Source of the DNA: a virus
Length of the DNA stretch: 38,622 nucleotides
Direction: 5' to 3' (one strand)
Virus record (IMG/VR): IMGVR_UViG_3300025299_000009
Coordinates: 1 to 38,622 of that record
The notes below the pieces were generated by a model. The model had not been told where the DNA came from. It saw only the letters and a list, made by a program, of their open reading frames with translations, and did not search any database. Made by a program: the position numbers and the translations under genes. Shown here one piece after another: positions 652 through 33,385 of this stretch (position 1 is the stretch's first letter; each line of letters begins with the position of its first letter).

Positions 652-1437
652 TTAATCCTTGAATGCAGTGACCGCGTATTTGTGGCGACGCGCCCAAGCA
701 GTCTTCACTGCGTCCATGTGCTTTGCGGCATAAGCCCGATACGCTTCATCGACCTGCGTGATAGCGTCACGAAATACGGATTCAGCTTCGGCGCACTGCT
801 GCGGCGTGTAGTCTTCGCCGTATTCGGGATCCACCCCAGAGGTCTGCGAAACGAAGGCGATATGCAGTTTGTCGGATGCGGCATCGAGACGCCGCAGTCC
901 TTCAATCACTCTGGTCCTGGCCAATGCCTCAGGGCCCTCCGGCGTACTCCGCAATTCAGCGGCCACGAGGATGCGGGAGAACGACCGGATTTCGTCGTGC
1001 AATCCCGAGAGCGCGTTGTGCCAATTCTGGAACGCTCTCTCGCGATTGTCGTCATCATAGTGCGTGACCAACTCCCCCGCCTTGAACAGAATGTTCACAA
1101 ATGTCCGGACGGCGTCACGTTCGGCCTCCAACTCGCGGGCGTATATTTCGGCTCGTTCCATGACTTGTATCGCCGATTGGCGGTTCATTTCAGCCAGTTG
1201 TCGGTATACGGGCCTGACAACGAAGAACGCGACGGCAGCTGCAATGAAGGCAGCCAATGTGGCTTGATAGCGATTGAGCCAGAATTCGAAACAACCAAAA
1301 CTAGGCTTTTCTTTCGCAATCTCCGCCATGACGCCGGGCGAGCACTGGGCAGAAAGCTCCGAAATCAACGCGGCCACGGGAAATGCCGTGAGAATCAAAA
1401 AAAAGCCAACCAGCGGCCAGTTAACATCGCGCGTCAT
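652..1437 (-). CDS. Membrane protein with two N-terminal helices and a coiled-coil domain, function unknown
   Basis: This 261-residue protein has a hydrophobic segment at about residues 9-29, a short loop with two Cys, and a second segment at about 58-78. A long charged, helix-rich domain follows (about 80-261) and is probably cytoplasmic. I do not recognise a domain family. The start ATG at 1437 is supported by AAGGGG four bases upstream. It is transcribed against all its neighbours, lying between the methyltransferase and the replication-type gene, and less GC-biased codons suggest a separately acquired cargo gene. Inner-membrane phage cargo of this topology is sometimes involved in superinfection exclusion, but nothing here proves that. 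Confidence 0.7.
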   Translation of the reverse strand: MTRDVNWPLVGFFLILTAFPVAALISELSAQCSPGVMAEIAKEKPSFGCFEFWLNRYQATLAAFIAAAVAFFVVRPVYRQLAEMNRQSAIQVMERAEIYARELEAERDAVRTFVNILFKAGELVTHYDDDNRERAFQNWHNALSGLHDEIRSFSRILVAAELRSTPEGPEALARTRVIEGLRRLDAASDKLHIAFVSQTSGVDPEYGEDYTPQQCAEAESVFRDAITQVDEAYRAYAAKHMDAVKTAWARRHKYAVTAFKD

Positions 1438-6468: not shown

Positions 6469-7736
6469 GCTGGTTAAGCTCAGTGCTCGGCTTCTTTCAG
6501 CCGAGAACGTCTGATAGCGCTGGGGGGCAAGGAGATGCCTTCTACCGTGCGGACGGCGATCTCGGCGAGGCGGTGACCGAGTCCTCGGTTCTCAACCTGT
6601 CGGCCGCATGGGCCTCGCTCAACCTGCTCGTCGGCACCATCGGCTCGCTGCCGCTGATGGTCTATCGCGATCGGCCGGGCGGCGGGCGCGAGGTTGCGAA
6701 GGATCATCCGCTCTACCGGATCCTACACCAGAGCCCAAATGCCGAGCAGACCACGCTCGATTTCCTCGAGCAGCTCAATCTTTCGATCGAGCTGCGCGGG
6801 AACGGTTATGCTGAGATCGACCGCATCGGCGATAAGATCGTCGCTCTGACGCCGATCCATCCCGATGTCATGACGGTGCGCCGGCCCTCCTCCGGCGATC
6901 TCGAATATCGCTGGCGCGACGGGGCCGGCCGCTATCACGTCGGCGGCGCGCGCGAGATCCTGCATATCCGCGGCTTCGGCGGGGATCCGCTGGGCGGCAT
7001 CTCGACGCTGACCCATGCGCGCAAGGCTTTCGGCCTAGCAGCCTCGGTCAACCGGGCGGCGCTGCGCACCTTCATCAATGGGCTTCGCCCGTCCGGCATC
7101 CTCAAGTTCGACAAGACGCTCTCGCCAGAGAAGCGCGACGAGCTGGAGAAGCTGCTCGTCGAGAAGTTCATGGGCGCCATGAACGCGGGCCGGCCGATGC
7201 TGCTGGAGGCGGGCGGCTCCTGGGAGCAGCTGACCTTCAATCCCGAAGAGGCGCAGATGCTCGAATCGCGCGCCTTCTCGGTCGAGGAGATCGCCCGCAT
7301 CTTCGGCGTGCCGCCTCACATGATCGGCCACACCGCCGGCAACACGAAGCTCGGCTCCTCGATCGCGGATATGACCGAAGGCTTCACGAAATACAGCCTG
7401 CGCCGGCGGCTGCGCCGGATCGAACTGGCGCTGATGAAGCAGCTTCTGTCGGCGGTCGATATCGCCGCCGGCATCATCATCGAATTCAACCTCGAGGGCC
7501 TGCTTCGCGGCGCCAGCGCGGCGCGGGCCGCCTTCTACCAGATCATGCTCGCCGCCGGCGTCATGACCATCAACGAGGTGCGTGCTCTGGAGAACCTGCC
7601 CCCGGTTCCGGGCGGCGATGTCCCGCGCATGCAGTCGCAGAACATCCCGATCACCCAATCGGCCCCGATCGGCCCAGGTACTCCGCAAAGATCGGGCGGC
7701 CCGCCGCTGGAGGAAGACGATGCTGAAGACGCATGA
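6465..7736 (+). CDS. Phage portal protein (HK97 family)
   Basis: The start is GTG 6465, overlapping the terminase stop, giving 423 residues (VSWLSSVLGF...), the usual size for HK97-family portals. Family hallmarks are the region around SAAWASLNLLVGTIGSLPL near the N-terminus, the RGNGYAEI motif, and the segment VEEIARIFGVPPHMIGH in the stem/clip part. The dodecameric ring forms the DNA entry vertex of the capsid and docks the terminase and the connector. The C-terminus is Pro/Gly-rich and acidic. The last 17 bp overlap the protease gene. Confidence 0.95.
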   Translation: MSWLSSVLGFFQPRTSDSAGGQGDAFYRADGDLGEAVTESSVLNLSAAWASLNLLVGTIGSLPLMVYRDRPGGGREVAKDHPLYRILHQSPNAEQTTLDFLEQLNLSIELRGNGYAEIDRIGDKIVALTPIHPDVMTVRRPSSGDLEYRWRDGAGRYHVGGAREILHIRGFGGDPLGGISTLTHARKAFGLAASVNRAALRTFINGLRPSGILKFDKTLSPEKRDELEKLLVEKFMGAMNAGRPMLLEAGGSWEQLTFNPEEAQMLESRAFSVEEIARIFGVPPHMIGHTAGNTKLGSSIADMTEGFTKYSLRRRLRRIELALMKQLLSAVDIAAGIIIEFNLEGLLRGASAARAAFYQIMLAAGVMTINEVRALENLPPVPGGDVPRMQSQNIPITQSAPIGPGTPQRSGGPPLEEDDAEDA

Positions 7737-8382
7737 CTTCGCGCTGGAGACCAAGGCGGTCGGCGACGAGGGCGAATTCGAGGGCTATGCCTCGACCTTC
7801 GGCAACGTCGACCAGGGCGGCGATGTCGTCGAGCCCGGCGCCTTCATCGAGTCGATCGTCCAGGCGAAGAAGGACGGCCGCACCATCCCGATGCTCTGGC
7901 AGCACGACCAGAGCGAGCCGATCGGCATCTGGATCGATATGGCCGAGGATTCGAAGGGCCTCTTCGTCAAGGGGCGTCTGCTCATCGACGTCGATCCGCT
8001 GGCGAAGCGGGCGCACGGTCTGCTCAAGGCCAAGGCGCTTGGCGGCATGTCGATCGGCTACCGCTACCTGCCCGGCCATGCCGAGCAAGATGAGAAGCGC
8101 CCAGGCGTGACGCGGCTGAAGAAGATCGACCTTCGCGAGGTCTCCCTCGTCACCATGCCCATGAACATCATGGCGCGCGTGACTGGGGTGAAAGCCCTGC
8201 TCGACGCCGGCAAGCTGCCGACGATCCGTGAATTCGAGGAGTTCCTGCGGGACGCAGGCGGCTTCTCCAAGAGCCTTGCCGCGGCGATCGCTGGCAAGGC
8301 GGCGCCGCATCTTCGGGGGGAGCCCGAGGCGAAGGCGAGCGAGCCGGCCGCATTCCTGCGCGCCTTGCTCAAACAAGGCTGA
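7720..8382 (+). CDS. Prohead maturation protease (peptidase U35)
   Basis: ATG 7720 is preceded by AGGAAG (7711-7716), giving 220 residues. It is a herpesvirus-assemblin-like serine protease: His62 (MLWQHDQSEPIG) and Ser111 (LGGMSIGYR) are the catalytic pair, and the core strand EFEGYASTFGNVDQGGDVVEPGAF is typical. It enters the prohead, cleaves the delta domain of the capsid protein and itself, and triggers maturation. It sits between portal and capsid genes, the normal order. Its last 60 residues are Ala-rich and probably form the piece lost by self-cleavage. Confidence 0.95.
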   Translation: MLKTHDFALETKAVGDEGEFEGYASTFGNVDQGGDVVEPGAFIESIVQAKKDGRTIPMLWQHDQSEPIGIWIDMAEDSKGLFVKGRLLIDVDPLAKRAHGLLKAKALGGMSIGYRYLPGHAEQDEKRPGVTRLKKIDLREVSLVTMPMNIMARVTGVKALLDAGKLPTIREFEEFLRDAGGFSKSLAAAIAGKAAPHLRGEPEAKASEPAAFLRALLKQG

Positions 8383-8413
8383 CCCTCAACTTCCCATCAC
8401 TCGGAGCATCATC

Positions 8414-9844
8414 ATGAATCGTACCTTGTCGCTTCTGGCGATCGGGCTGTTCGCCCTCGCCTTCATCACCGGTTCGACCGCGGCCTTCGCTGCCGCCGGC
8501 GAGCTCGCCTCGTCCACCTCGCTCGTTTCGGCTTCTCTGTTCGGGGCCGGCTCCGTCGCGCGCATGCTCGCCGTCTCCGGCCCGCGCGCCTTCATGCCTC
8601 GCATCATCTTCGACAAGCCGGGCGAAGGCGGACTCGAAGGCAAGTCGGTCGAGGAGCTCGCGGCCAACGTCAAGAAGATGGTCGATGAGGCCGTCGGCAA
8701 GGTGAAGGAGATCGCCGAGGAGGCGCTCGGCAAGGCCAAGTCCGGCGAGCAGATCACCGACCAGACCAAGACGAAGGCCGATGAGGCTCTCGTCAAGATG
8801 AACACGCTGACCGAGCAGCTCTCCGCGCTCGAGCAGACTGTAGCGAAGCAGAAGAAGGGTGGCAGCGACGACAAGCCCAAGAGCCTCGGCGAGCAGTTCG
8901 TCGAGAGCGATGGCTTCAAGGGCTTTCAGGATTCCGGCTTCTCCAAGTCCGCGCGCGGCGGCGATCTGAAGGTAAAGGCGACGCTGACCTCGGCGACGAC
9001 CGATGCCGCCGGCTCCGTGGGTGACGCGGTGCAGACGACGCGCGTCGCCGGCATCCTTGAGCTGCCGCAGCGCCGCATGACGGTTCGGGATCTCATCTCG
9101 CCCGGCCAGATGGATGGTTCGACGCTCGAATACGTGGTCGAGACCGGCTTCACCAACAATGCCGGCATGGTGGCTGAAGGTGCGGCGAAGCCGTCGTCCG
9201 ACATCAAGCTCGACCTGCGCTCGACCTCGGCGAAGGTGATCGCGCACTGGATGAAGGCCTCCAAGCAGATCCTGTCGGACGTCAGCCAGCTGCGCTCGAT
9301 GATCGATCAGCGCCTGCTCTATGGCCTCGCCTTCAAGGAGGAGCAGCAGCTTCTGTCCGGCGATGGCACCGGCCAGAACCTGTACGGAATCATCCCGCAG
9401 GCGACCGCCTATTCCGCGCCGGTTTCGCTCGCCGGGCTCACCATGATCGACGTGCTGCGTCTCGCCATGCTTCAGGCGGCGCTGGCCGAGTATCCGGCCA
9501 CAGGCCATGTCCTCAACCCGATCGACTGGACCGCGATCGAACTGCAGAAGGACGATATCGGCCGTTATATCATCGGCAACCCGCAGGGCGGAACGGCGCC
9601 GACCCTCTGGCGCCTGCCGGTGGTCGAAACCCAGGCCATGACGGTTCGCAAGTTCCTCACCGGCGCGTTCAAGCTCGGTGCGCAGCTCTTCGACCGTTGG
9701 GAAGGTCGCATCGAGGCCGGTTACGAGAACGACGACTTTACCAAGAACCTGGTGACCATCCTCGGCGAAGAGCGCCTTGCGCTGGCGGTCTATCGTCCCG
9801 AGGCCTTCATCTACGGCGATTTCGACACCGCTCTCGGCGAGTGA
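8414..9844 (+). CDS. Major capsid protein (HK97 fold) with an unusual hydrophobic N-terminus
   Basis: ATG 8414 has GGAG seven bases upstream and gives 476 residues. The C-terminal 300 residues have HK97 capsid features: the stretch around DLISPGQMDGSTLEYV, KASKQILSDVSQLRSMID (spine helix) and GTGQNLYGI before the A-domain. Residues about 75-150 are a charged coiled coil, the delta-type scaffold removed by the protease. Odd: residues 1-27 look like a Sec signal peptide (Arg, a 17-residue hydrophobic core, then AFAAAGEL resembling an AxA cleavage site), which a cytoplasmic capsid protein does not need. A later in-frame ATG at 8594 lacks a ribosome site, so the extension is probably translated. 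Confidence 0.95.
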   Translation: MNRTLSLLAIGLFALAFITGSTAAFAAAGELASSTSLVSASLFGAGSVARMLAVSGPRAFMPRIIFDKPGEGGLEGKSVEELAANVKKMVDEAVGKVKEIAEEALGKAKSGEQITDQTKTKADEALVKMNTLTEQLSALEQTVAKQKKGGSDDKPKSLGEQFVESDGFKGFQDSGFSKSARGGDLKVKATLTSATTDAAGSVGDAVQTTRVAGILELPQRRMTVRDLISPGQMDGSTLEYVVETGFTNNAGMVAEGAAKPSSDIKLDLRSTSAKVIAHWMKASKQILSDVSQLRSMIDQRLLYGLAFKEEQQLLSGDGTGQNLYGIIPQATAYSAPVSLAGLTMIDVLRLAMLQAALAEYPATGHVLNPIDWTAIELQKDDIGRYIIGNPQGGTAPTLWRLPVVETQAMTVRKFLTGAFKLGAQLFDRWEGRIEAGYENDDFTKNLVTILGEERLALAVYRPEAFIYGDFDTALGE

Positions 9845-9912
9845 TCTCGCTTCGGCTGACCAAGGGCGGCTCGCTTCTGGCGCGCCGTCTCTGTGAGCCG
9901 AAGGAGAGAACC

Positions 9913-10137
9913 ATGACGAGCAAGCTGCAGAAATACCGCGTGCTGCGCGGCCATGAAGGCGACCGAGCCTATGTCGAAGGCGAGACCCGCGAGGCAGATC
10001 CGGTAGCTGTCGGACATCTGGTCGGCCGCGTGCTGGAGCCGCTGCCGGCCGGTCGCAAGTCCGAACCTGCCCCGAAGAACAAGGCCGAAGGCGCCGCTCC
10101 GGCGAACAAGGCCTCCACCGGCCGCAAGGCCAAGTAA
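9913..10137 (+). CDS. Small head-region protein, function unknown
   Basis: ATG 9913 follows AAGGAGAG, a strong ribosome site, giving 74 residues. The first half is mixed strand/helix (KYRVLRGHEGDRAYVEGETREADP), the second half is a disordered Lys/Ala/Pro-rich tail. Short proteins of this sort commonly follow the capsid gene in HK97-like phages. I cannot name a family. It is co-directional with the capsid (68 bp gap) and with the following gene (33 bp gap). Confidence 0.75.
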   Translation: MTSKLQKYRVLRGHEGDRAYVEGETREADPVAVGHLVGRVLEPLPAGRKSEPAPKNKAEGAAPANKASTGRKAK

Positions 10138-10170
10138 GGGCCACCCGGCCCGCCACAGGAGAGCATGCCG

Positions 10171-10554
10171 ATGAAGCGCTACAAGGTCACCGTGACGACG
10201 GCCGCCGATGGTTCGGCCGTCGCCTATTCGCCGCGGTTCTCCGGCGAGATCCACCAGATCGAGTATGTGAAGGATACCGCCTCGGCTGGCGCCAACGCCT
10301 TCGCCAACGGCGTCGACTTCACCATCACCGGCGAGACCACCGGCGTCGGCCTCTGGACGCAGAGCGACGTGAACGCCTCGGCCGTCGTGGCGCCCCGCCA
10401 GCCGACGCATTCGCAGGCGGGCGTTGCCTCGCTCTACGCGGCCGGCGGCACGGCGGTTCAGGCGCGCGTCGCCCTGGCGAACGACCGCGTCAAGATCGCG
10501 ATCGCCTCCGGCGGCAACGCCAAGGTCGGCGCCTTTCACATCCTCGTCGACTGA
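10171..10554 (+). CDS. Conserved phage head-region beta protein, function unknown
   Basis: The protein is about 127 residues, mostly beta strand, of a type I recognise from many proteobacterial siphophages (KRYKVTVTTAADGSAVAY..., APRQPTHSQAGVASLYAAGGTAV), always near the capsid. Its role is not established; capsid decoration or a head-fibre role is a guess from position. AGGAG at 10157-10161 is better spaced for ATG 10171 than for ATG 10165, which would add two residues. Confidence 0.8.
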   Translation: MKRYKVTVTTAADGSAVAYSPRFSGEIHQIEYVKDTASAGANAFANGVDFTITGETTGVGLWTQSDVNASAVVAPRQPTHSQAGVASLYAAGGTAVQARVALANDRVKIAIASGGNAKVGAFHILVD

Positions 10555-10562
10555 GATCGCCG

Positions 10563-11171
10563 ATGCTCTGCCTTCCGCCTGCCCTGGTGACGCCTCCGGC
10601 TGAGATGCCGGTCAGCCTCGAGCAGGCGAAGGCGCATCTGCGCGTCGACCATAATGAGGATGATGCGCTGATCACGGCGGCCATCGCTGCCGCGGTCGTG
10701 CATCTCGACGGCTATTCCGGCATTCTCGGCCGCGCGCTGGTTCCGCAGGACTGGTGCGAGTTCGCATCCTTCTGGCCGGCCTCGCGCGTGGTCGAGCTGC
10801 GGCTTGCGCCGGTCGCTGCGATCGTCGAGGTCAAGGCGCGTGGCGCGGATGGCACCGAGACGGTTCTCGACCCATCCGCCTATCGCCTGCTCGCCGGTTC
10901 GTCGTCGCGGCCGATGCTGATCTTCGGCGTCGGTGCCACCCTGCCGGCGCTGGCTTGCGAGCCCGATGCGCTCGCCGTCACCTACCGGGCGGGCTATGAG
11001 GACGCCGACGGCAAGGCCGCCGTGCCGGCGCCCGTCATCAACGCGATTCTGCTGATGGTCGGCGACCTCTACCGCTTCCGTGAGACCGTCGCGCTCTCGG
11101 CGTCGTCGCCGATCCTGATGTCGACCACGGTCGACCGCCTGCTCGCGCCGCTGCGCCGGTATCAGCTCTGA
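10563..11171 (+). CDS. Head-tail connector protein (HK97 gp6 / phiE125 gp8 type)
   Basis: This 202-residue protein has the helical N-terminus typical of gp6-like connectors (VSLEQAKAHLRVDHNEDDALITAAIAAAVVHLDGYSG), a central beta region, and a C-terminal helix (INAILLMVGDLYRFRET). It forms the ring attached beneath the portal. It ends in TGATG, overlapping the head closure gene by one base, so the two are probably translationally coupled. Confidence 0.9.
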   Translation: MLCLPPALVTPPAEMPVSLEQAKAHLRVDHNEDDALITAAIAAAVVHLDGYSGILGRALVPQDWCEFASFWPASRVVELRLAPVAAIVEVKARGADGTETVLDPSAYRLLAGSSSRPMLIFGVGATLPALACEPDALAVTYRAGYEDADGKAAVPAPVINAILLMVGDLYRFRETVALSASSPILMSTTVDRLLAPLRRYQL

Positions 11172-11530
11172 TGCTGTCGGCCGGCCAGCGCGATAGCCGC
11201 GTGCGTTTCGAGCGGCGCCTCGAGGTCAACCCGGACGCCCCGGCCGATTACGGCAATGTCGAGAGCAGCTGGGCGCCCATCACCACGGTCTGGGCCGGCT
11301 TCCTGCCGGCGCGCGGGCAGGAGCGTCAGGCGGCCGATGCCCAGACATCGACCCTGACCGGCACCATCACCGTGCTGCGCTCGGCCACGACGGATGCGGT
11401 CGAGGCCGATTGCCGGGCTGTCTTCGTGGCCGGCCCCTATCGCGGCTCGATCGCCAATATCCGTACGGTCGAGCCGACCGGCGATAATCGCGAGATCCGC
11501 TTCACCGCCGAGATTGGAGCGCCGACATGA
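11171..11530 (+). CDS. Phage head closure / head-tail adaptor protein
   Basis: This 119-residue beta-barrel protein matches the head closure family (SPP1 gp16 / HK97 gp7-like). The opening MLSAGQRDSRVRFERR, a mid-protein WAGFLPARGQER, and the C-terminal RFTAEIG are typical. It joins the connector ring to the tail and stops DNA leaking out. It starts on the last base of the preceding stop and overlaps the next gene by 4 bp (ATGA). Confidence 0.9.
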   Translation: MLSAGQRDSRVRFERRLEVNPDAPADYGNVESSWAPITTVWAGFLPARGQERQAADAQTSTLTGTITVLRSATTDAVEADCRAVFVAGPYRGSIANIRTVEPTGDNREIRFTAEIGAPT

Positions 11531-11733
11531 AGGTTTCTCCGGAGCTTTTCAGGCCAACGGCTAAGCGCCTGCTCCACGAAAACGCGGCGGTGACGCGTGT
11601 GGCCGCGGCATACAGCGGGGCACCTCGTGACCACGAGGCCATGCGCCGTGCCGTCTACGAGATGGGCCTTGCCTTCGCCTCCGCCGGCTGGAAGCCGCGC
11701 ATTCGCGTGAAGGCCCGAAGCAAAAAGTTCTGA
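11527..11733 (+). CDS. Small phage protein, function unknown
   Basis: This 68-residue basic protein starts at an ATGA overlap with the head closure gene. It is mainly helical and ends in a very basic tail (RIRVKARSKKF). No family is recognised. Tight coupling within the connector block and codon use like its neighbours support a real gene. The context suggests a minor head or neck component. Confidence 0.65.
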   Translation: MKVSPELFRPTAKRLLHENAAVTRVAAAYSGAPRDHEAMRRAVYEMGLAFASAGWKPRIRVKARSKKF

Positions 11734-11760
11734 GTCAGACAGTTACGAAAGGAAACGGCC

Positions 11761-12258
11761 ATGTCTCTCGAAACCGTCGTCACCGCCTCGATCAGGGCAG
11801 TGGAGAGCGCCCCGCTCGATCTCGGCTCGGCCTCGGCGCCGATCGCGCTGGAGGTGAGGCACAACCTCGCCAACGGTTCGGCTGCCGGTCAGGCCTCGAA
11901 AGCCTTCAGCGACAGCCGCGTCATCGCGGCCAGTGGCAGCGAGAACCTCGATCTGGCCGGCGCGCTCTCCTCGGCGCTCGGCGCCACGATCGCCTTCGCC
12001 ACGGTCAAGTCTATCCTCGTCAAGGCCAAGGCGACCAATGCCAACAATGTGCTCGTCGGTCCGGCGGCTTCGAACGGCTTCCTCGGCCCCTTCGCCGATG
12101 CGTCCGATCGCGTCGCCGTGAAACCAGGCGGCAGCTTCCTGGTCAGCGCGCCGGATACGGGATGGACGGTCACGGCCGGCACCGGCGACCTGCTGACCGT
12201 CGCTAACAGCGGCGCCGGCACGGAGGTCGGTTACGACATCGTCGTGATCGGCACCTGA
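11761..12258 (+). CDS. Beta-rich structural protein, function unknown
   Basis: This 165-residue protein follows AAAGGAAACGGCC, a good ribosome site. It is Ala/Ser/Gly/Val-rich with repeated strand patterns, no cysteine and no membrane segment, which suits an extracellular virion protein. The sequence LVGPAASNGFLGPFADASDRVAVKPGG is typical of phage proteins that follow the connector genes in alphaproteobacterial siphophages. A decoration or neck role is possible, but I know no defined function. Confidence 0.75.
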   Translation: MSLETVVTASIRAVESAPLDLGSASAPIALEVRHNLANGSAAGQASKAFSDSRVIAASGSENLDLAGALSSALGATIAFATVKSILVKAKATNANNVLVGPAASNGFLGPFADASDRVAVKPGGSFLVSAPDTGWTVTAGTGDLLTVANSGAGTEVGYDIVVIGT

Positions 12259-12277
12259 GTAGCGCTTCGCCCTTATC

Positions 12278-12550
12278 GTGCCCTGGGTCCGCTTCACGGC
12301 CCGCTTCGACTGGTCGCCGACGCCTCTCAAGGGCCGAGTGACGATCTCGCACCTGCCCGGCCTGGTCCGCTTCGTCACCCGCGCCTGCGCTGCCGAGGCC
12401 TTCGCCGCCGGCAAGGCCGTCCCCTGTCCCTCACCGAGGCTTCGCCATGGCGACCAATCAAAGCCTGATCCGGCTGAAGCGCCGGCTGTTCCGGCTACCG
12501 AAGGCCGTCAGGGATGCGGCGATGAAGCAGGCGCTGCTCTCGGCTCATGA
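12278..12550 (+). CDS. Small conserved phage protein, C-terminus overlapping the gp10 gene
   Basis: From GTG 12278 the first 55 residues (PWVRFTARFDWSPTP... GLVRFVTRACAAEAFAAGKAV) match a small protein family I know from this position in rhizobial and other siphophages. It usually ends close to the start of the gp10 gene. Here the frame stays open for another 104 bp inside gp10, giving 90 residues with a Pro/Arg/Gly-rich tail that may be only overlap noise. No clear ribosome site is visible; translation may depend on coupling to the upstream gene 19 bp away. Function unknown. Confidence 0.6.
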   Translation: MPWVRFTARFDWSPTPLKGRVTISHLPGLVRFVTRACAAEAFAAGKAVPCPSPRLRHGDQSKPDPAEAPAVPATEGRQGCGDEAGAALGS

Positions 12551-12857
12551 TCTCGCCGGCGAGATCGCCGCGAAGGCACCGAAGGACGAGGGCGACCTCG
12601 CGGCCTCGGTCCGGATCGAGGGTAATGCCGACGGCACACGCTGGTACATCAAGGCCGGCGGCAAGGTGACGACGAAGCCGGTCCGCAAGGGCCAGTCGGC
12701 GACCTATGACTACGCGCTGGGTCAGGAGTTCGGCCGCGAGGGTATGCCGGCGCAGCCATTCTTCTGGCCGACCTATCGGCGGCGGAAGACGCGCGTGAAG
12801 CGCGAGATCCGCGAGGCTGCCGTCAAGGCGGCGAAGGATAGTGTGAACCGTGGCTGA
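12447..12857 (+). CDS. HK97 gp10-family tail-completion protein
   Basis: The protein is 136 residues with the gp10 signature APKDEGDLAASVRIE and a C-terminal region (YDYALGQEFGREGMPAQPFFWP) conserved in the family. gp10-like proteins act at the head-tail interface during tail completion. The end overlaps the next gene by 8 bp. Confidence 0.93.
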   Translation: MATNQSLIRLKRRLFRLPKAVRDAAMKQALLSAHDLAGEIAAKAPKDEGDLAASVRIEGNADGTRWYIKAGGKVTTKPVRKGQSATYDYALGQEFGREGMPAQPFFWPTYRRRKTRVKREIREAAVKAAKDSVNRG

Positions 12858-13245
12858 TCCGTCGCTCGCCCTGCAGGGTGCGCTCGTCACTCTCATCAAG
12901 GGCAAGACCGAGGCCGGCGATCGCGTCTATGACCGCGTCCCGGCCAAGGCCGAGAAACCCTACGTCTCGCTCGGCCCGATGGATGTCATCGGCTCCTATG
13001 CCGACTGCTATGACGGCTCCGAGACCACGGCGCAGATCGACGTCTGGGGTGACGGCGTCGGCATGCCGGTGGTCAAGCGGATCGCCTCGCAGATCCGCGA
13101 CCTGATCAACGCCGAAGATTATGCGCTCGACGGGCACACGCTGGAGCTCGGCGCGGTGCAGTCCGCCGTCTATTCCGGCGATCCGAACGGCATCACCACG
13201 CGCGCCGTCATCACCGCGCGCTTCCTGACCCAGCCCCAAGACTAA
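12850..13245 (+). CDS. Tail terminator protein (DUF3168)
   Basis: This is a 131-residue DUF3168 protein starting at GTG 12850 inside the end of the gp10 gene. Features include the N-terminal helix ADPSLALQGALVTLIKGK, VYDRVP, YVSLGPMDVI, and DVWGDGVGMPVVKRIASQIRDLI. Members form the ring that ends tail-tube polymerisation and joins tail to head. Its place between gp10 and tail tube is canonical. Confidence 0.93.
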   Translation: MADPSLALQGALVTLIKGKTEAGDRVYDRVPAKAEKPYVSLGPMDVIGSYADCYDGSETTAQIDVWGDGVGMPVVKRIASQIRDLINAEDYALDGHTLELGAVQSAVYSGDPNGITTRAVITARFLTQPQD

Positions 13246-13269
13246 CCCATACCTGAAAGGACAAGGCCC

Positions 13270-13707
13270 ATGGCTCGCCCGACCACGCGGCGCGGCTCGA
13301 AGCTGCTCATCAAGATCGGCGACGGCGGCACGCCCGAAACCTTCACCGCGCCCTGCGCCCTCGCGACCAAGGGCTTCAACCGCTCGGCGGCGATGAACGA
13401 GTTCAACGTCGCCGATTGCGACAACCCCGACGACCCCGTCTGGACCGAGCGCGTCAAGAGCGCCTTGTCCTCGACCATTTCCGGCTCGGGCACGCTGGCG
13501 AAGGAAAGCCTCGACCTCTACGAGGCGGCCTATGTCGCGCAGGACCCGGTCAATGTTCAGGTCGTGATCGACTACGCAGTCGGTCCGCGCACCTATCAGG
13601 GCGCCTATCTGCTCTCGACCTTCAACATCACCGCCGAGCAGGACGGGCTGATCCAGGTCGAGCTGGAATGGCAGTCCTCCGGCCCGGTCCTGCCGGTGGC
13701 GGCCTGA
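13270..13707 (+). CDS. Major tail tube protein
   Basis: This 145-residue protein belongs to the GTA/rhizobial tail-tube type: PTTRRGSKLLIKIGDGG near the N-terminus, FNRSAAMNEFNVADCDNPDDPVW, SGSGTLAKESL, and a C-terminal strand QVELEWQSSGPV. Subunits stack as hexamers to build the non-contractile tube. AAAGGACAAGGCCC gives a ribosome site. It shares a 1-bp stop/start overlap (TGATG) with the chaperone gene. Confidence 0.93.
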   Translation: MARPTTRRGSKLLIKIGDGGTPETFTAPCALATKGFNRSAAMNEFNVADCDNPDDPVWTERVKSALSSTISGSGTLAKESLDLYEAAYVAQDPVNVQVVIDYAVGPRTYQGAYLLSTFNITAEQDGLIQVELEWQSSGPVLPVAA

Positions 13708-14123
13708 TGTCGCTCGATGGCTCGATCGAAATATTCTGGGCGGGGGACCTGCGCGTCTTCCGCCTGCCCATCGCGCAGCTGCTCGCACTCGAGGAGAAGC
13801 GCGACTCCGCGCTCGCCGAGATCCACGGCCGGCTGATGCGCGGCGTCTGGTCTCTGCGCGACGTTACTGAGACGCTGCGTCTCGGGCTGATCGGTGCGGA
13901 CGTCGATGCGCGTCATGCGGCCAAGCTGGTCGAGGAGCACTGCGTGGACGGCCGGATCGAGGCTGCGGCCTTAGTCGCCTTCTATGCGCTGACGGCGGCC
14001 CTAGATGCCCCGAAAGCGGTGGCCCTCGCCAAGGGCGATGAGCCGGGAAAAGATCGGGCGGAGACGGACCCGAACGAGGCGAACGCCTCTCCGCCTCCGC
14101 TCTCTACGCGTCCGCAGCCCTGA
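13707..14123 (+). CDS. Tail assembly chaperone, first subunit (GTA gp12-like)
   Basis: The 138-residue protein resembles the gene-transfer-agent gp12 family (DGSIEIFWAGDLRVFRLPIAQLLALEEK... SLRDVTETLRLGLIGADVD), a tail-assembly chaperone that coats the tape measure before tube polymerisation. Its C-terminus is charged and Pro-rich. It is followed by a 50-residue frame through TGATG, instead of the programmed frameshift that makes the long chaperone form in lambda. Confidence 0.88.
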   Translation: MSLDGSIEIFWAGDLRVFRLPIAQLLALEEKRDSALAEIHGRLMRGVWSLRDVTETLRLGLIGADVDARHAAKLVEEHCVDGRIEAAALVAFYALTAALDAPKAVALAKGDEPGKDRAETDPNEANASPPPLSTRPQP

Positions 14124-14275
14124 TGAACGTGCCCCCGGCCGCACTCGGGCGGCTAGGGCTTTGGGAATACATCCTGCTCGTCCAGGGCTGGAATGAGCTG
14201 CATGGCGAAGATGGCCCGAGCATCGAGCCGCCGAGCCGGGCAGAATTCGAGGACATGGTTGGGCGGCTGGGCTGA
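14123..14275 (+). CDS. Tail assembly chaperone, small second subunit (50 aa)
   Basis: An open frame begins at ATG 14123, overlapping the previous stop by one base, and ends at the TGA at 14273-14275: 50 residues including LGLWEYILLVQGWNELHG and PPSRAEFEDMVGRLG. Short proteins of exactly this form follow gp12-like chaperones in GTAs and rhizobial siphophages and are counted as tail assembly chaperones. Coupling by TGATG supports expression together with the upstream gene. Confidence 0.8.
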   Translation: MNVPPAALGRLGLWEYILLVQGWNELHGEDGPSIEPPSRAEFEDMVGRLG

Positions 14276-14485
14276 CTAGGGCTTCGGTCTACCCTGTTGA
14301 AGCAGCTTTCGGAGCTCGTCGGCATTGATGTCAGGTTGCAGCGCCTTCAGGGCCTGCAAGTCCTTGATGAACGCCGCGACATCGACCCTGCAACGCTCTT
14401 CGGCGGCGTAGCCGGTACCGACGACAGCGACCGCCGCAAATGCGCCGACGCCAGCTATGGCGCCGATGATGATCGTCTTCAGCAT
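14276..14485 (-). CDS. Small exported protein with Sec signal, opposite strand inside the tail operon
   Basis: On the reverse strand, ATG 14485 is preceded by GGGAGG at ideal spacing and gives 69 residues. Residues 1-27 form a signal peptide (Lys3, a hydrophobic Gly/Ala/Val core, cleavage likely after GYA). The mature part has one Cys, the stretch VDVAAFIKDLQALKALQPDI, and a basic end. It fills precisely the gap between the chaperone pair and the tape measure, starting one base after the chaperone's stop. It is probably a cargo (moron) gene acting in the periplasm of the lysogen; its function is unknown. Confidence 0.72.
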   Translation of the reverse strand: MLKTIIIGAIAGVGAFAAVAVVGTGYAAEERCRVDVAAFIKDLQALKALQPDINADELRKLLQQGRPKP

Positions 14486-14545
14486 GCTTGCCTCCCGCGC
14501 TGAGACGATAACGCCGCCCGCACCTGTTGAAAAGGAAGCCTGAGA

Positions 14546-16405
14546 ATGGCCGGAAACGACCTCGTCATTCCAATCGGTGGCGATCCCGCGCAGCTGGAGC
14601 GCGCGATGAAGAAGGCGGCCGATTCCGCCGATCGCGCCGCCGCGTCGATCGAGAAGCGCTTCGACCGGCTGGACCTCGCCTCCCGCTTTGGCGTTGGCGC
14701 CATTCAGGGGGCGATCGCCGCCATCTCGGTCGATCGGCTGATCCGCGGCTTCGCCGACGCGAACAAGGAAATCGCCGGCATGGCCGAGACGGCCAAGCGT
14801 ACCGGGATCGACTTGGGCCGGCTGCAAGAGCTTCGTATGGCTGGGCAGAGTCAGGGCCTTACGGGCAAGCAGGTCGATACTGGCCTCGAAGGCTTGGCCG
14901 AGAAGCTCAATGAGGCGCGGGGCGAGGAGACGGAGCTCGGCAAGCTCTTCGATGCCAACAATATCAAGCTGAAGGATCGCAGCGGCAACGTCATCGGGAC
15001 CAATCAGGCGCTGGAGCAGGCCGCGAATCTGGTGCAGCGCGCAGCAACCGAATTCGACAAGATCAAGATCGCCGAGATCCTTGGACTGACGCGCGATTGG
15101 GTGCCGCTTCTGGAAAAGGGAGCGGATGGCCTCAACCGCATGGCGAACGAAGCGCGCCTCGCCGGCGGCGTGATCGATTCCGCTACGATCGAGAAAGCCA
15201 AGGAATTCGAGGAGCGCTGGAGCGCCGCCGTCGCCGCCTGGTCGACGATGTTCAAGTCGAATATCGGCGGCATCATCGACATGCTGAACGGCTTGGTCGG
15301 TATCGCCGGCAAGCTGGGCGCCGGCCTTGCGGACTATGCCAAGCGCACTGCCGCGGTCAGCGACATCGAGCTGAACGGCGTAAATGGCGCCTCGCGTGGT
15401 TCGCTCGAATGGGCGATCAACAAGGGCCGGGAGCTTGGCGTTTCCGAGCAGGATCTTGCTGATGCCAAAGGCCGGCTCGATGAACTGCGCGAGCTCGACC
15501 GCGAGGCCACTCGTGGCAGGCGCTCGCAGCCGCTCGACGTCACCGTTCGTCCGACGGGCCGCAGCACGGTCATCCCGCCGAAATCATCGGGTGGCGGCAG
15601 TGGCGAGAGCGAGGAAGACAAACGCTACGACCAGGTGCAGCGCTATATCGAGCAGCTGGAGAAGACGAGTCGCGTGCTCGAGGCGGAGAAGGCGACACTC
15701 GGCCTCTCCAATGCCGAACGCGCCAAGGCGATCGAGCTTGCCCGCATCGGCACGGTCACCGACGAGGGCCAGAAGGCGAAGATCGAGGAGATCGTCGGCA
15801 AGAACGAGGAGCTGCGCGCGTCGATCGCCCGCGTGAAGCAGTCGCAGGACGGCCTGCGCGATGCACAGAAGTTCTTCGGCGATGCGGCGGTCGATGCGCT
15901 GGAAGACCTGATCGTCAACGGTGCCAAGGCCGAGGACGTGGTCAAGCGCCTCGCCGCCTCGCTGGTCAAGGCGGCGCTGCAGGCGGCCCTCCTCGGCCAG
16001 GGGACGCTCGGCGGCCTCTTCGGCACGGCCGGGACCAACGGCAACCTCGGCGGGCTGATCGGCGGCTTGTTCGGGGGCTTCCGCGCCGGCGGCGGTTCGG
16101 TCTCAGCTGGCAAGGCCTATGTCGTCGGCGAGAAGCGGCCGGAACTGTTCGTTCCGTCGACCTCCGGCCGGATCGTACCGAATGTGCCGACGGTCAGCCC
16201 GGTAGCCGCCGGCGGTGGCAACCTGATCGTCAATGTCCAGAACAACACGCCGGCGCAGGTCGAGACCAAGCCGCGCAGCGATGGGGGCGTCGACATGGTG
16301 ATCAACCAGGTTGAGGGCGCGCTGGCGCAGCGCCTGCTCCGCGGTCAGGGCTCCTTGAGCCAGGCCCTTACGGCCAAGTCGACGAACCGGCATCTGCAGG
16401 GCTGA
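14546..16405 (+). CDS. Tail tape measure protein
   Basis: The protein is 619 residues, Ala/Gly-rich and mostly helical. N-terminal residues about 1-60 form a coiled coil (GGDPAQLERAMKKAADSADRAAASIEKRFDRL). Hydrophobic stretches lie at about 50-62, 238-262 and 475-510 (the last Gly/Leu-rich), and a beta-rich C-terminal end contains NLIVNVQNNTPAQV. The tape measure sets tail length and is ejected ahead of the DNA. By the usual proportionality of about 1.5 angstrom per residue, the tail would be roughly 90 nm long. AAAGGAAG lies just upstream of the start. Confidence 0.92.
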   Translation: MAGNDLVIPIGGDPAQLERAMKKAADSADRAAASIEKRFDRLDLASRFGVGAIQGAIAAISVDRLIRGFADANKEIAGMAETAKRTGIDLGRLQELRMAGQSQGLTGKQVDTGLEGLAEKLNEARGEETELGKLFDANNIKLKDRSGNVIGTNQALEQAANLVQRAATEFDKIKIAEILGLTRDWVPLLEKGADGLNRMANEARLAGGVIDSATIEKAKEFEERWSAAVAAWSTMFKSNIGGIIDMLNGLVGIAGKLGAGLADYAKRTAAVSDIELNGVNGASRGSLEWAINKGRELGVSEQDLADAKGRLDELRELDREATRGRRSQPLDVTVRPTGRSTVIPPKSSGGGSGESEEDKRYDQVQRYIEQLEKTSRVLEAEKATLGLSNAERAKAIELARIGTVTDEGQKAKIEEIVGKNEELRASIARVKQSQDGLRDAQKFFGDAAVDALEDLIVNGAKAEDVVKRLAASLVKAALQAALLGQGTLGGLFGTAGTNGNLGGLIGGLFGGFRAGGGSVSAGKAYVVGEKRPELFVPSTSGRIVPNVPTVSPVAAGGGNLIVNVQNNTPAQVETKPRSDGGVDMVINQVEGALAQRLLRGQGSLSQALTAKSTNRHLQG

Positions 16406-26928: not shown

Positions 26929-27006
26929 TCGGCGCACCTGATCGCCATGGCGATGGCTTGGCCGGCCTAACCGGCTGCCCTCCTGGGGCGTTTCCTCCCT
27001 AGACTT

Positions 27007-27043
27007 GGCCCCGCTCCGGTTCGCCCCGGAGCGGGGCCTTTTT
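27007..27043 (+). terminator. Strong intrinsic terminator
   Basis: A perfect 13-bp stem GGCCCCGCTCCGG (27007-27019) / CCGGAGCGGGGCC (27026-27038), with a 6-base loop, is followed by TTTTT. It ends the forward transcript carrying the lysis genes and the 80-aa gene. Confidence 0.92.
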
Positions 27044-27157
27044 CGTTTCAGCGCGATGTGCTATCGGAAGGGCCTCGACGGCGCGTCCGGTTTACTGGCG
27101 CGCAGGCGGAGTCGTCTACCGCCATCATTTCCATCGAACGCATGAAAGGGGTCCGCT

Positions 27158-29427: not shown

Positions 29428-30153
29428 ATGTGTAATCTCTACAGCCACACCCGCAACGTCGAGGCGATGCGGAAGCTGTTCGCCAAGTTCGACGTAGCCG
29501 CTCAGATCGTGCCGCAACCCGGCATCTTCCCGGATTATGCTGCGCCCATCATCCGGAACCAGGCCGGCACGGACGTTCCGGAACTCGTCTTGGCGCGCTG
29601 GGGCATGCCGAGCAGCAAGAAGGCTCTGCTCGATGCGGCGACGAAGCGCGCGGACAAGTTGCGGGCGAAGAACAAGCCGGTCGACTTCGACGAGCTGCTC
29701 AAGATGGAACCGGACAGCGGGACGACGAACGTCCGCAACTCCTCGAGCTCACATTGGAAGCGCTGGCTCGGCCTCGAAAGCCGATGCTTGGTTCCGTTTA
29801 CATCGTTCAGCGAGTTCAATCGTGATGCCGGCGGGGACGTCTGGTTCGCGTTCGGCGAAGATCGCCCCACGGCCTTTTTCGCCGGGATTTGGACGAAAGA
29901 CTGGACCAGCGTGCGCAAGATCCGAACAGGCCTAGAGACGATCGACCTCTACGCTTTCCTGACGACTGAACCGAACGCCGAGGTCGGCGCGATCCATCCG
30001 AAGGCTATGCCGGTGATCCTCACGACGCCCGAAGAATGCGCGGCGTGGATGACGGCTCCGTGGGAGGAGGCGAAGGCGTTGCAACGCCCCCTCCCCGATC
30101 GCTCGCTCGACATCGTCGCACGCGGGCTGAAGAAAGACGGTGAAGCCGCCTAG
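29428..30153 (+). CDS. yedK: SOS response-associated peptidase, HMCES/YedK family
   Basis: This 241-residue SRAP protein carries all the active-site marks: Cys2 exposed after Met removal (MCNLY), Asn101 and Arg103 (TNVRN), Glu129 (TSFSEF) and His190 ([10 protein letters not shown]). The family forms a covalent thiazolidine crosslink between Cys2 and an abasic site in single-stranded DNA, protecting replication forks from strand breaks. It is the fourth gene of the LexA-controlled operon, 54 bp after the clamp-motif gene. The overlap with an opposite-strand small ORF at its end is 4 bp. Nothing in the sequence suggests decay. Confidence 0.95.
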
Positions 30154-30266: not shown

Positions 30267-30444
30267 GACTTATTGGGGAACGCGGGCCCGGAAAAGCAAG
30301 AGGCTGACACCGCTTCCCAAGCTGATGTAACGCGTTCGCGGCGACCGCCTTCCGCTTGCGGCGCATGAGAAGTATAGATCTCGGTGGGAGAATCACTCTT
30401 ATTTTCTGCTTCGAATCGATTCACTCCCTCAGTAGAGGTTGGTC
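30267..30444. other. Intergenic spacer at the edge of the AT-richer island
   Basis: The 178 bp change from GC-rich to AT-rich composition toward the right. Possible promoter elements for the AlbA_2 gene exist (TATAGA near 30373), but with a poor -35, so no promoter is claimed. A short inverted pair, CCGC TT GCGG, lies near 30350. No gene is seen on either strand beyond the 38-aa ORF. Confidence 0.4.
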
Positions 30445-31287
30445 GTGCTCCCATCTGCGCCATCTCCGATTACCGCCCAGGATGTTCGGCGTCTTATTGG
30501 AATGAGAGAGGGACCGATCCTTGAATTGAAGCGAGAAATTCCTCGACTTAATGATCAAGGGAAGGTTGAGCTTTTAAAGGACGTATCCGCGATGGCAAAT
30601 GCTATCGGCGGATCGATAGTCTATGGAATAGAAGAGAAAGATGGCGTAGCTTCAAAATTGGTTGGCATTCAATCTGATAATATCGACGACCTCTGTGTAA
30701 ATATAACAAACATCATTGCGACTGGACTCTCGCCCGCTGCCGCAGGAATTGAAATTCTGCATGTAATGGTCGAAGAGATTTCTATAATTATAATTCGCAC
30801 AACAGAAAGTCATCTAAAGCCACACCGCGTCATATATGGGGGCCGCAGCAAGTATTATCTGCGACACGGGATGAGTTCTCGGGAAATGACAGACGCCGAC
30901 CTGAGGATGACATATACGAAAGGAACTTTTCTCGGAACACATATCGATGGCGTCGTCATAAAACCGAATGATTTGTTATCAGTAGGTCAGGGAAGATTGA
31001 GCAATCGCACCATAACAAATTGCACATTCCTGGGACCAGGCACGTTAGTTATTCTTGGAAATACTTTGAGTAAAAATGAATTCCGTAATTGTCAAATGAT
31101 AGTAATACCCGGCGACAATTCCAGAACCCCAATACGATCGTCGGGCATAATAGGATGCCACGTGACCGGATGCTTTTTCTTTGACCTCACGTTGATTGTT
31201 CCACCAAATGTTCTGGAAGCATTTGTCGCAGATATGCCCAGTTTCCTTGAGCATATGCCGATCATATGCGACGGAAGGCGAAATTAA
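30445..31287 (+). CDS. AlbA_2/Schlafen-like ATPase-type domain fused to a beta-repeat domain
   Basis: I start at GTG 30445, with AGAGG six bases upstream (TTG 30439 is an alternative), giving 280 residues. Residues about 10-140 match the AlbA_2 (divergent AAA_4, Schlafen-like) domain: EGPILELKREI, DVSAMANAIGGSIVYGIEE, and KYYLRHG near its end. The C-terminal part is a cysteine-bearing beta repeat (ITNCTFLGPGTLVILGNT, FRNCQMIVIPG, GCHVTGCFFFD) resembling a small beta-helix. The gene is AT-richer than the phage, marking separate ancestry. AlbA_2 proteins occur in several phage-defence and regulatory systems; its function here is unknown. Confidence 0.8.
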   Translation: MLPSAPSPITAQDVRRLIGMREGPILELKREIPRLNDQGKVELLKDVSAMANAIGGSIVYGIEEKDGVASKLVGIQSDNIDDLCVNITNIIATGLSPAAAGIEILHVMVEEISIIIIRTTESHLKPHRVIYGGRSKYYLRHGMSSREMTDADLRMTYTKGTFLGTHIDGVVIKPNDLLSVGQGRLSNRTITNCTFLGPGTLVILGNTLSKNEFRNCQMIVIPGDNSRTPIRSSGIIGCHVTGCFFFDLTLIVPPNVLEAFVADMPSFLEHMPIICDGRRN

Positions 31288-31336
31288 TCGCTTGCGAGGA
31301 AAGCGGCGCAGGGCTCAGCCCCGACGCAAGTTAATC

Positions 31337-32119
31337 TTAAGAAGACACTCCAGCAGAGAAAAGCGATGGAGGGGAATCTTCTTCAAGGTCAAGGCGCCCC
31401 AAAACCATGAAGCGATGCCCGCTTATGTCGATAAGAAATTGTGCAAGCAATGACTTAACGCGCGAAAGGAATGCTATTGCCTCTTGATAGCGGGAGATTA
31501 TAAATTCTCTTTCGAAATTCTTGTCACCAGCGTGTAGCACGTTGCCGCAAACCCCGTAAATTTCCGCAGCCTGATCCTTGGTAAGATTGTCGCCCGACGG
31601 CGGAAGAAAATTCCCTTCGATACCCGGCTCATCTGATGGTCCAATGGTCAAGGACTCAGGGAAAAAAGCTGGATTGATCCTGGATAGCTTTGCCATAATT
31701 CTATGCGCGTTCCATTCCTCACGGATCGCCTTAGATATCTCTGCTCCACCAGCTTCATTTGCGGAAACTGACAGGAGCATCATCTCCTCGATAATCTTCC
31801 TGATGTTTAGATAGACGTAGTCGAGCGCGATCAAATCATCCATCGACAGGTTGGTTGGAACCCCGCCAGAAAGCACCCTATCTAGGTGGACAATCCTTCG
31901 CTTGACCATCGAAAAGTAGAGCATGGCCCTGCTCAGGTCCGGTTTGCGCCTAGCGGACGACCTGCCGGCTTGCCCATTTTCTCCATCCATTCGACCGACC
32001 TTGCCTGAAGGCAATTCTCCGTTGAGATGACACGACTGATACGACCCATCTAAAGCCTCGACAATATTGCGGCTCGGTGACTTTCGGACGGGGTATCCCT
32101 TTAGCGGGCGGATGCCCAT
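31337..32119 (-). CDS. Hypothetical protein of the acquired island, function unknown
   Basis: The frame runs to a GTG at 32233, but ATG 32119 has GAGGG upstream and is my choice (260 residues); ATG 31993 (MDGENGQ) is also possible. The C-terminal 200 residues are helical (LSRAMLYFSMVKRRIVHLDRVL, MDDLIALDYVYLNIRKIIEEMM, LLAQFLIDISG) and form the conserved part. This reminds me of uncharacterised helical proteins found in defence-like islands, but I cannot assign a family. It is transcribed against its neighbours: its 3' end converges with the AlbA_2 gene and its 5' end is divergent from the DUF3800 gene. Confidence 0.68.
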   Translation of the reverse strand: MGIRPLKGYPVRKSPSRNIVEALDGSYQSCHLNGELPSGKVGRMDGENGQAGRSSARRKPDLSRAMLYFSMVKRRIVHLDRVLSGGVPTNLSMDDLIALDYVYLNIRKIIEEMMLLSVSANEAGGAEISKAIREEWNAHRIMAKLSRINPAFFPESLTIGPSDEPGIEGNFLPPSGDNLTKDQAAEIYGVCGNVLHAGDKNFEREFIISRYQEAIAFLSRVKSLLAQFLIDISGHRFMVLGRLDLEEDSPPSLFSAGVSS

Positions 32120-32268
32120 AGGGCCCTCGCACGATAATTGAACCTGATTTGTTCCAGCGGGGGGGGAGATATGAGTCCCTCTCCCGCTACCACTTCCAAG
32201 AGTCAGCGCGGTAAGGCCGTTTTCACGATGCACGTATAACCTTCGGCGAATGCTAGCTGGGGGTACTG

Positions 32269-33084
32269 ATGATCCTGCTCTATTGCGATGAAACGAACTT
32301 GGAGGAGCGAAACGGGGATTTTCTGATCTATGGTGGTTTAGGTATTCCAGCCGATCGCGCGCTCGGCCTCTCTCGCTCGGTTGATGATCTGAGAAAGGAA
32401 TACAAGCTTGATCCTACCTTTCGGCTGAAGTTTAATCCCGGCCCCAAACATCTCGATCATCAGGAATTTATCGCTCTTAAGCAGCGAGTAATGGAAGCTG
32501 CTGTCGCGCATGGCGCTCTTTTGGTTGCCTACCTCATCTTGCACGACATAGCGAAAAGCCCCGATGAGGGCCGGCGAAATGGGATCAACGTCGTCTGCTA
32601 TCATTTCGACTGCTTGTTGAGGCGCAGCGAGCGTCATGGGCTTGTGCTAATCGATCGCTTCAACGATGCCGGGAACCTGATCGAAGCGCATCTGACGGAA
32701 AAATTCTCGATCGGCCTGGTCGGCATGCCATACTCGAGTCAGATGCGGCTCGGGAACATTATCGGGTTGCACTATTCGGCAATCGGCCAGTCGCACTTCC
32801 CCAGTATCGTGGACATCGTGCTCGGGTCTTTGCGGTTCGCGATTAACGCGCATACCCGCCGAAAGCAGGAGCATCACGTCACCGCTGGCGCTCTGCTAAA
32901 GCTCCTGGCGCCGATGTGCTGGCGAGACAAGGACAATGGGCCAGTGTCTGAGCTCAGCGTCGCTTTCAGTCCAAAGGTTGTAAAGGCCGATCATTATCGA
33001 GCTGCCTATCAGGGGCTAAAGGATTTCCTTGCTGCAAATGGCATCGAAACCGAGCAGCGGATCGAGGCGATCCGTACATACTAA
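32269..33084 (+). CDS. DUF3800 family protein
   Basis: Preceded by GGGGGTACTG, ATG 32269 gives 271 residues. The N-terminal strand carries the family hallmark YCDET (Asp7-Glu8; the usual form is Y-x-D-E-S). A second acidic strand is LVLIDRFND, and a C-terminal stretch, SQMRLGNIIGLHYSAIG, corresponds to the Q-x-A-D-x-x-A region, with the Asp replaced by Asn. DUF3800 proteins are thought to have an RNase H-like fold, and many lie in phage-defence or mobile regions; catalysis is unproven and may be weakened here by the change. It is the last gene before attR. Confidence 0.82.
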   Translation: MILLYCDETNLEERNGDFLIYGGLGIPADRALGLSRSVDDLRKEYKLDPTFRLKFNPGPKHLDHQEFIALKQRVMEAAVAHGALLVAYLILHDIAKSPDEGRRNGINVVCYHFDCLLRRSERHGLVLIDRFNDAGNLIEAHLTEKFSIGLVGMPYSSQMRLGNIIGLHYSAIGQSHFPSIVDIVLGSLRFAINAHTRRKQEHHVTAGALLKLLAPMCWRDKDNGPVSELSVAFSPKVVKADHYRAAYQGLKDFLAANGIETEQRIEAIRTY

Positions 33085-33196: not shown

Positions 33197-33245
33197 CTCG
33201 TTTACACCGAGGATGTCGGCGGTTCGAGCCCGTCACTGCCCACCA
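33197..33245 (+). other. attR: 3' fragment of tRNA-Val(TAC) at the prophage-chromosome junction
   Basis: The 49 bp hold the 3' part of a tRNA: an anticodon stem CTCG/CGAG around the loop TTTACAC (anticodon TAC, Val), a T arm GGCGG TTCGAGC CCGTC, the acceptor 3' strand ACTGCCC, and ACCA. The matching 5' acceptor strand (GGGCAGT) and D arm are absent upstream, so this is not a functional tRNA. Integration into a tRNA 3' end leaves exactly such a copy at the distal end. Its orientation places the intact tRNA and attL to the left, outside the window. Confidence 0.85.
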
Positions 33246-33385
33246 CTCCCCAATTTCCGACGTTAACCGAGACGATGTGGGCGGCATATGGCGCCCCCAG
33301 AGGGCCACGCATGAAGTATCCGTGGCAGCGAGGGGCAATGCGCAGTCTACGCGGCGTGGTCATTTGCGCCCCCTCTCCCGCTCGC
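33246..33385. other. Non-coding host sequence after attR
   Basis: About 140 bp between attR and the stop of the LuxR-type gene. It contains a few inverted GC stretches, but no convincing gene, promoter or T-tailed hairpin. Confidence 0.5.

Follow-up and report, generated by a model that had tools for sequence, protein, structure and literature searches.

The low-GC patch and its flanks

The window (the whole stretch of 38,622 nucleotides that was analysed, IMG/VR record IMGVR_UViG_3300025299_000009) contains a patch of unusual composition holding three genes, referred to here as P1, P2, and P3. P1 (30445–31287, plus strand) encodes an SLFN_AlbA_2 domain followed by a C-terminal tail, P2 (31337–31990, minus strand) encodes a 217-residue protein of the phrog_13799 family, and P3 (32269–33084, plus strand) encodes a protein that was assigned, on the basis of its relatives and a structural model, to a divergent DUF3800 subfamily with an RNase HII-like fold. 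All three genes described in the original prediction of an AT-richer island are present, and the GC content over 30439–33084 is 0.503, compared with values of 0.624–0.686 in 611 equally long windows taken from the rest of the stretch.

The three reading frames are all intact. Their strands alternate, so the genes form no operon, and promoter and terminator signals within the patch are not above chance. GC3 is 0.42 for P1, 0.54 for P2, and 0.64 for P3, compared with 0.81 for the preceding SRAP gene and 0.75–0.88 for the host genes that follow the patch. The genes are therefore unlike the phage in composition and also unlike one another, which fits separate acquisitions. Another GC dip, to approximately 0.59, is seen at the left end of the stretch, and contains a reading frame of 261 residues (652–1437, minus strand).

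Upstream of the patch is the SRAP gene (29428–30153, plus strand; Pfam SRAP, E = 1.9e-18; 39 relatives in viral contigs), which we regard as context and not as cargo. In the viral contigs whose SRAP gene is nearest to that of the window (79–81%), the similarity continues upstream of SRAP, while the sequence after SRAP differs from that of the window and has normal GC. This difference in content among otherwise similar viral contigs indicates that the slot after SRAP is variable. Within the prophage there is also a hit to the suhB/mmgR small RNA family of Rfam (26970–27052, plus strand; 58.9 bits, gathering threshold 41), located a little before the SOS-type genes.

Downstream of the patch is a 54-nt 3′ fragment of a tRNA-Val(TAC) gene (33197–33250, plus strand), with matches of 84–87% to tRNA-Val genes; the reference genes sit close to lon in each of three related genomes. 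Here the 5′ portion is lacking, and there is no complete tRNA in the whole window, so that the fragment looks like an attR formed at a tRNA. Of the earlier placing of the genes between an SOS operon and attR, the upstream side is confirmed for the SRAP gene, and the attR is probable on the strength of this fragment. In the three related genomes, tRNA and lon have a relative orientation opposite to that in the window, the tRNA lying near the 3′ end of lon. The nearest lon genes, approximately 80% identical, come from Bradyrhizobium mercantei and from one further member of the same class. No empty integration site was found; in one genome, which matches the adjoining methyltransferase gene at 78%, no tRNA is present at that place. 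The window starts among phage genes, and the other prophage end lies beyond it. The suggestion of foreign low-GC cargo beside a likely attR is supported.

A Schlafen-type domain with an unusual tail

The assignment of the first domain of P1 to the AlbA_2 family was confirmed by Pfam (PF04326, E = 4.5e-14), with a score of 53.4 bits against a curated cut-off of 25.3. The start is placed at GTG 30445, which suits the AGAGG sequence at 30434–30438 better than TTG 30439 does. Pfam and the structure model locate the domain to residues 1–161 approximately (30445–30927), leaving a tail of about 120 residues (30928–31284).

Modelling and residue comparison used an alignment of P1 with 12 viral relatives (13 sequences in total). 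The first 160 or so residues were modelled with a pLDDT of approximately 96, and the tail with a pLDDT below 50. The core model is most similar to DIP2311 (Z = 12.6), the tRNase domain of SAMD9 (Z = 11.6), and human Schlafens (Z = 8.2–11.2), where unrelated structures gave Z values of about 5. The profile of the domain also matches the solved structure of CbCash (PDB 9ylu, E = 2.8e-12), and matches solved Schlafens with E values from about 1e-6 to 6e-4. P1 shares with the SLFN_AlbA_2 family, with human SLFN11, 12, 13, and 14, and with the SAMD9 tRNase and CbCash the core fold, the E-x4-E-x-K motif, and the GG loop.

The residues E22-x4-E27-x-K29 of P1 align with E209, E214, and K216 of SLFN11, all of which are required for cleavage by that enzyme (PMC9482658), and E22 and K29 are invariant in all 13 aligned sequences. 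Because these residues are kept, the nuclease site of P1 is predicted to be intact. The third acidic position is Glu64, whereas the aligned residue in SLFN14 is Asp; in SLFN11 the third carboxylate is D252, which is dispensable, since the D252A mutant still cleaves (PMC9482658). The most likely identity of P1 is a Schlafen-type endoribonuclease, acting on tRNA or on other RNA. We infer RNA cleavage, perhaps of tRNA, from the activity of Schlafen nucleases; a number of Schlafen-linked systems in prokaryotes are reported to defend against phages by cutting tRNA (PMC12839542).

P1 differs from its closest bacterial and viral AlbA_2 relatives in its C-terminus. The relatives carry a C-terminal half of about 200 residues, which is absent from P1, and in its place is the short tail, in which an N-C-x-F/F-x-N-C-like pattern recurs over about 120 residues. 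The original prediction could not name the fusion, and no family library gave a name for this part; its description as a beta-repeat domain is a reading of the sequence and should be taken as putative. A search of 397 genomes of the order matched the tail to a single protein (locus L023, E = 2.5e-5), which has no AlbA_2 domain, and no relatives were found when the tail was used as a query against plasmids and phages. At its N-terminus the L023 protein (1360–2076) is hydrophobic, with what look like two membrane helices, and the P1-like tail comes after them. It adjoins a transposase-like gene, and matches no Pfam or PHROGs family at the thresholds used. The fusion of AlbA_2 to this tail is a new point. 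In the mechanism that we propose, the usual C-terminal half would have been swapped for a probably beta-rich tail; as a guess, the tail would keep the enzyme inactive or anchor it, and would respond to infection.

A rare phage protein and a divergent DUF3800 protein

P2 matches phrog_13799 with E = 7.3e-14. The reading frame is open to 32233, but relatives begin near ATG 31990, and the N-terminal extension (31991–32233), which has no coding-like GC pattern, is probably non-coding. The profile matches all six of the family members scanned, that of the window included (E values from 1e-12 to 3e-39); there is no credible match to P2 in Pfam. An R-x5-H string and a C-G-x-x-L-H block raised the question of a HEPN identity. 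It has no Pfam support, and it was dropped because R-x5-H varies among the relatives.

Relatives of P2 are scarce: an alignment search found them in 2 of 397 genomes of the order, and the PHROG model in 2 of 274 genomes of another class, one of these being a broken copy. No relatives were found in viral contigs using the P2 alignment as a profile. One relative is beside terminase and portal genes (L043), another is near an S24-type repressor (L044), and others are on plasmids; in most loci their GC is far below that of the surroundings. With its phage and plasmid contexts and its rarity, the family behaves like an accessory phage or plasmid gene, and P2 would be an accessory phage protein. In another prophage contig (L071, 6001–7412), a phrog_13799 gene starts 2 bases past the stop codon of SRAP, and has a GC content of 0.40 in a background of 0.62. 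A cargo slot on the SRAP side has now been seen twice, there and in the window.

P1 and P2 are adjacent and convergent, and P1 is a predicted RNase, an arrangement that could suggest a toxin-antitoxin pair. Such pairs are commonly co-directional, and in the loci compared the relatives of P2 occur without any AlbA_2 gene. A P1–P2 pair is therefore considered highly improbable.

P3 was identified as DUF3800 through homology. The protein from the window gives no match to Pfam DUF3800 even at E = 10; nonetheless its relatives, at 49–62% identity, do match it (5 of 9 family members, best E = 3.6e-6), so the family named originally for the third gene holds for the window protein by way of its relatives. 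The relatives come from Alphaproteobacteria, Betaproteobacteria, a Competibacteraceae bin, and Geothrix. Despite the very distant hosts, approximately 60 positions are invariant, including D7, E8, D129, and D182. The model (pLDDT 76.6, with residues 130–174 uncertain) has as its nearest structures RNases H2, HII, and HIII, with Z up to 9.5, and P3 would thus be an RNase H-fold nuclease cutting RNA or RNA/DNA hybrid. An RNase H fold has been predicted for DUF3800, which is tied to Cas12a2 loci and CRISPR (PMC10910872, PMC12669027). P3 resembles DUF3800 proteins (PF12686) found with Cas12a2 and other systems in this fold and in its N-terminal D-E motif, but unlike typical members it is divergent to the point of falling below Pfam detection, and unlike those linked to Cas12a2 it has no adjacent CRISPR or TPR partner. 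The DUF3800-associated RNA motif of Rfam was found neither upstream of P3 nor in the loci scanned, and the P3 alignment, used as a profile, found no relatives in viral contigs.

The conservation in P3 also bears on the suggestion that the three genes are newly gained or decaying and have no current function. Their GC has not yet been ameliorated and they lack promoter and terminator signals above chance, as would be expected. However, none of the frames is broken, the active site of P1 is kept, and some 60 residues of P3 are unchanged over very distant hosts, and we consider this explanation very unlikely.

In 4 of 9 P3 relatives (L009, L011, L013, and L014) there is an attC-like hairpin directly upstream of the gene, which sets them apart from other DUF3800 genes, and in L009, L011, and L013 there is one downstream as well. 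The scan used relaxed settings, with shuffles and random windows as controls (13 of 1800 random windows were positive); strict settings lose most of the sites. One of these loci, L013, is a Geothrix limicola contig containing a long integron cassette array (7018–16385) with many attC sites of about 122 bp, and its DUF3800 gene is between a 64-bp and a 121-bp attC. Relatives also adjoin an SMC-like ATPase in L008, another DUF3800 gene and an Mrr-type nuclease in L009, and GmrSD with an AAA ATPase (L010; the same genes are within 6 kb in L002), and a Cap4 nuclease is within 4 kb in L012; these contexts were read partly by eye, in a list uncontrolled against random genes. Further relatives are on plasmids. 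All nine family members match the PADLOC candidate PDC-M04A weakly, the match of the window protein being weak and partial (E = 0.0023, residues 3–51 only).

It appears from these sequences that one branch of DUF3800 travels between distant bacteria in integron cassettes as well as by other routes, and the recurrence of P3 relatives as integron cassettes is a new point. They resemble in this respect the integron cassette defence genes described in Science in 2025 (eads0768 and eads0915, as presented in PMC12444791). Integron cassettes whose function was unknown have often turned out to be anti-phage, the figure cited in PMC12444791 being 20% in a survey of Vibrio cholerae. P3 of the window differs in that it sits in a prophage and has no attC within 170 bp. 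With neither an attC nor an adjacent effector, the contexts of its relatives may not carry over to it.

One system or separate cargo genes

The original prediction treated the three genes as one functional island and proposed a gene-neighbourhood test of their co-occurrence. Among 110 loci fetched, relatives of P1 were present in 33, of P2 in 13, and of P3 in 11, and in none were two of the three families found together, the only exceptions being the window and one piece of its sequence. Peptide-pattern scans reach mainly close relatives, and the genomes searched were samples from two classes; viral contigs and phages, searched with single proteins, gave no relatives. Within the reach of these searches, the joint-system idea fails the test that the original prediction set for it. 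A single three-gene anti-phage system, with P1 and P3 as nucleases and P2 as a helper, would account for the adjacency of the genes and the low GC common to all of them. It is hard to reconcile with the alternating strands, the unequal GC3, and the fact that each family has relatives standing without the others, and we regard it as extremely unlikely. From the lack of co-occurrence in these loci and the alternating strands it is concluded that the three genes are independent.

We therefore favour, with slightly better than even confidence, a cargo slot running from SRAP to the probable attR, which would have been filled by three unlinked gains: a Schlafen RNase (P1), an accessory gene (P2), and an RNase H-fold nuclease (P3). 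The lysogen would benefit if single genes, each acting alone, excluded superinfecting phages, and exclusion of other phages would most economically explain why such genes are carried. Defence cargo, considered gene by gene, is a plausible reading. A possible anti-phage role of single genes has its best indirect support in P1, from its predicted active-site residues, and in P3, from the integron and nuclease/ATPase contexts of its relatives.

The serious rival is that the cargo serves phage or lysogen biology other than defence, with P1 as a nucleic-acid-binding regulator, and P2 and P3 as factors for replication, host take-over, or plasmid and phage maintenance. P2 belongs to a phage family with no assigned function, the plasmid locations of P3 relatives are as expected, and many AlbA_2 relatives are solitary, being found as lone genes without defence neighbours. 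This does not sit well with the retention of nuclease residues in P1 and of the RNase H-type acidic set in P3, or with P3 relatives in integrons and beside restriction-like genes, and we consider it possible but rather unlikely. A bolder version of the defence reading, that P1 is a new single-protein Schlafen defence RNase whose portable sensor tail also occurs in membrane-anchored proteins, and that P3 stands for an RNase H-fold defence gene that is spread widely by integrons and unrecognised by current tools, is considered unlikely.

What was a vague 'defence island' becomes three separately testable genes. P1 is a predicted Schlafen nuclease with an unusually compact C-terminus, for which the residues for catalytic mutants are known. 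Together, P1 and P3 would provide two predicted RNA-cutting enzymes, from families that are linked to anti-phage defence.
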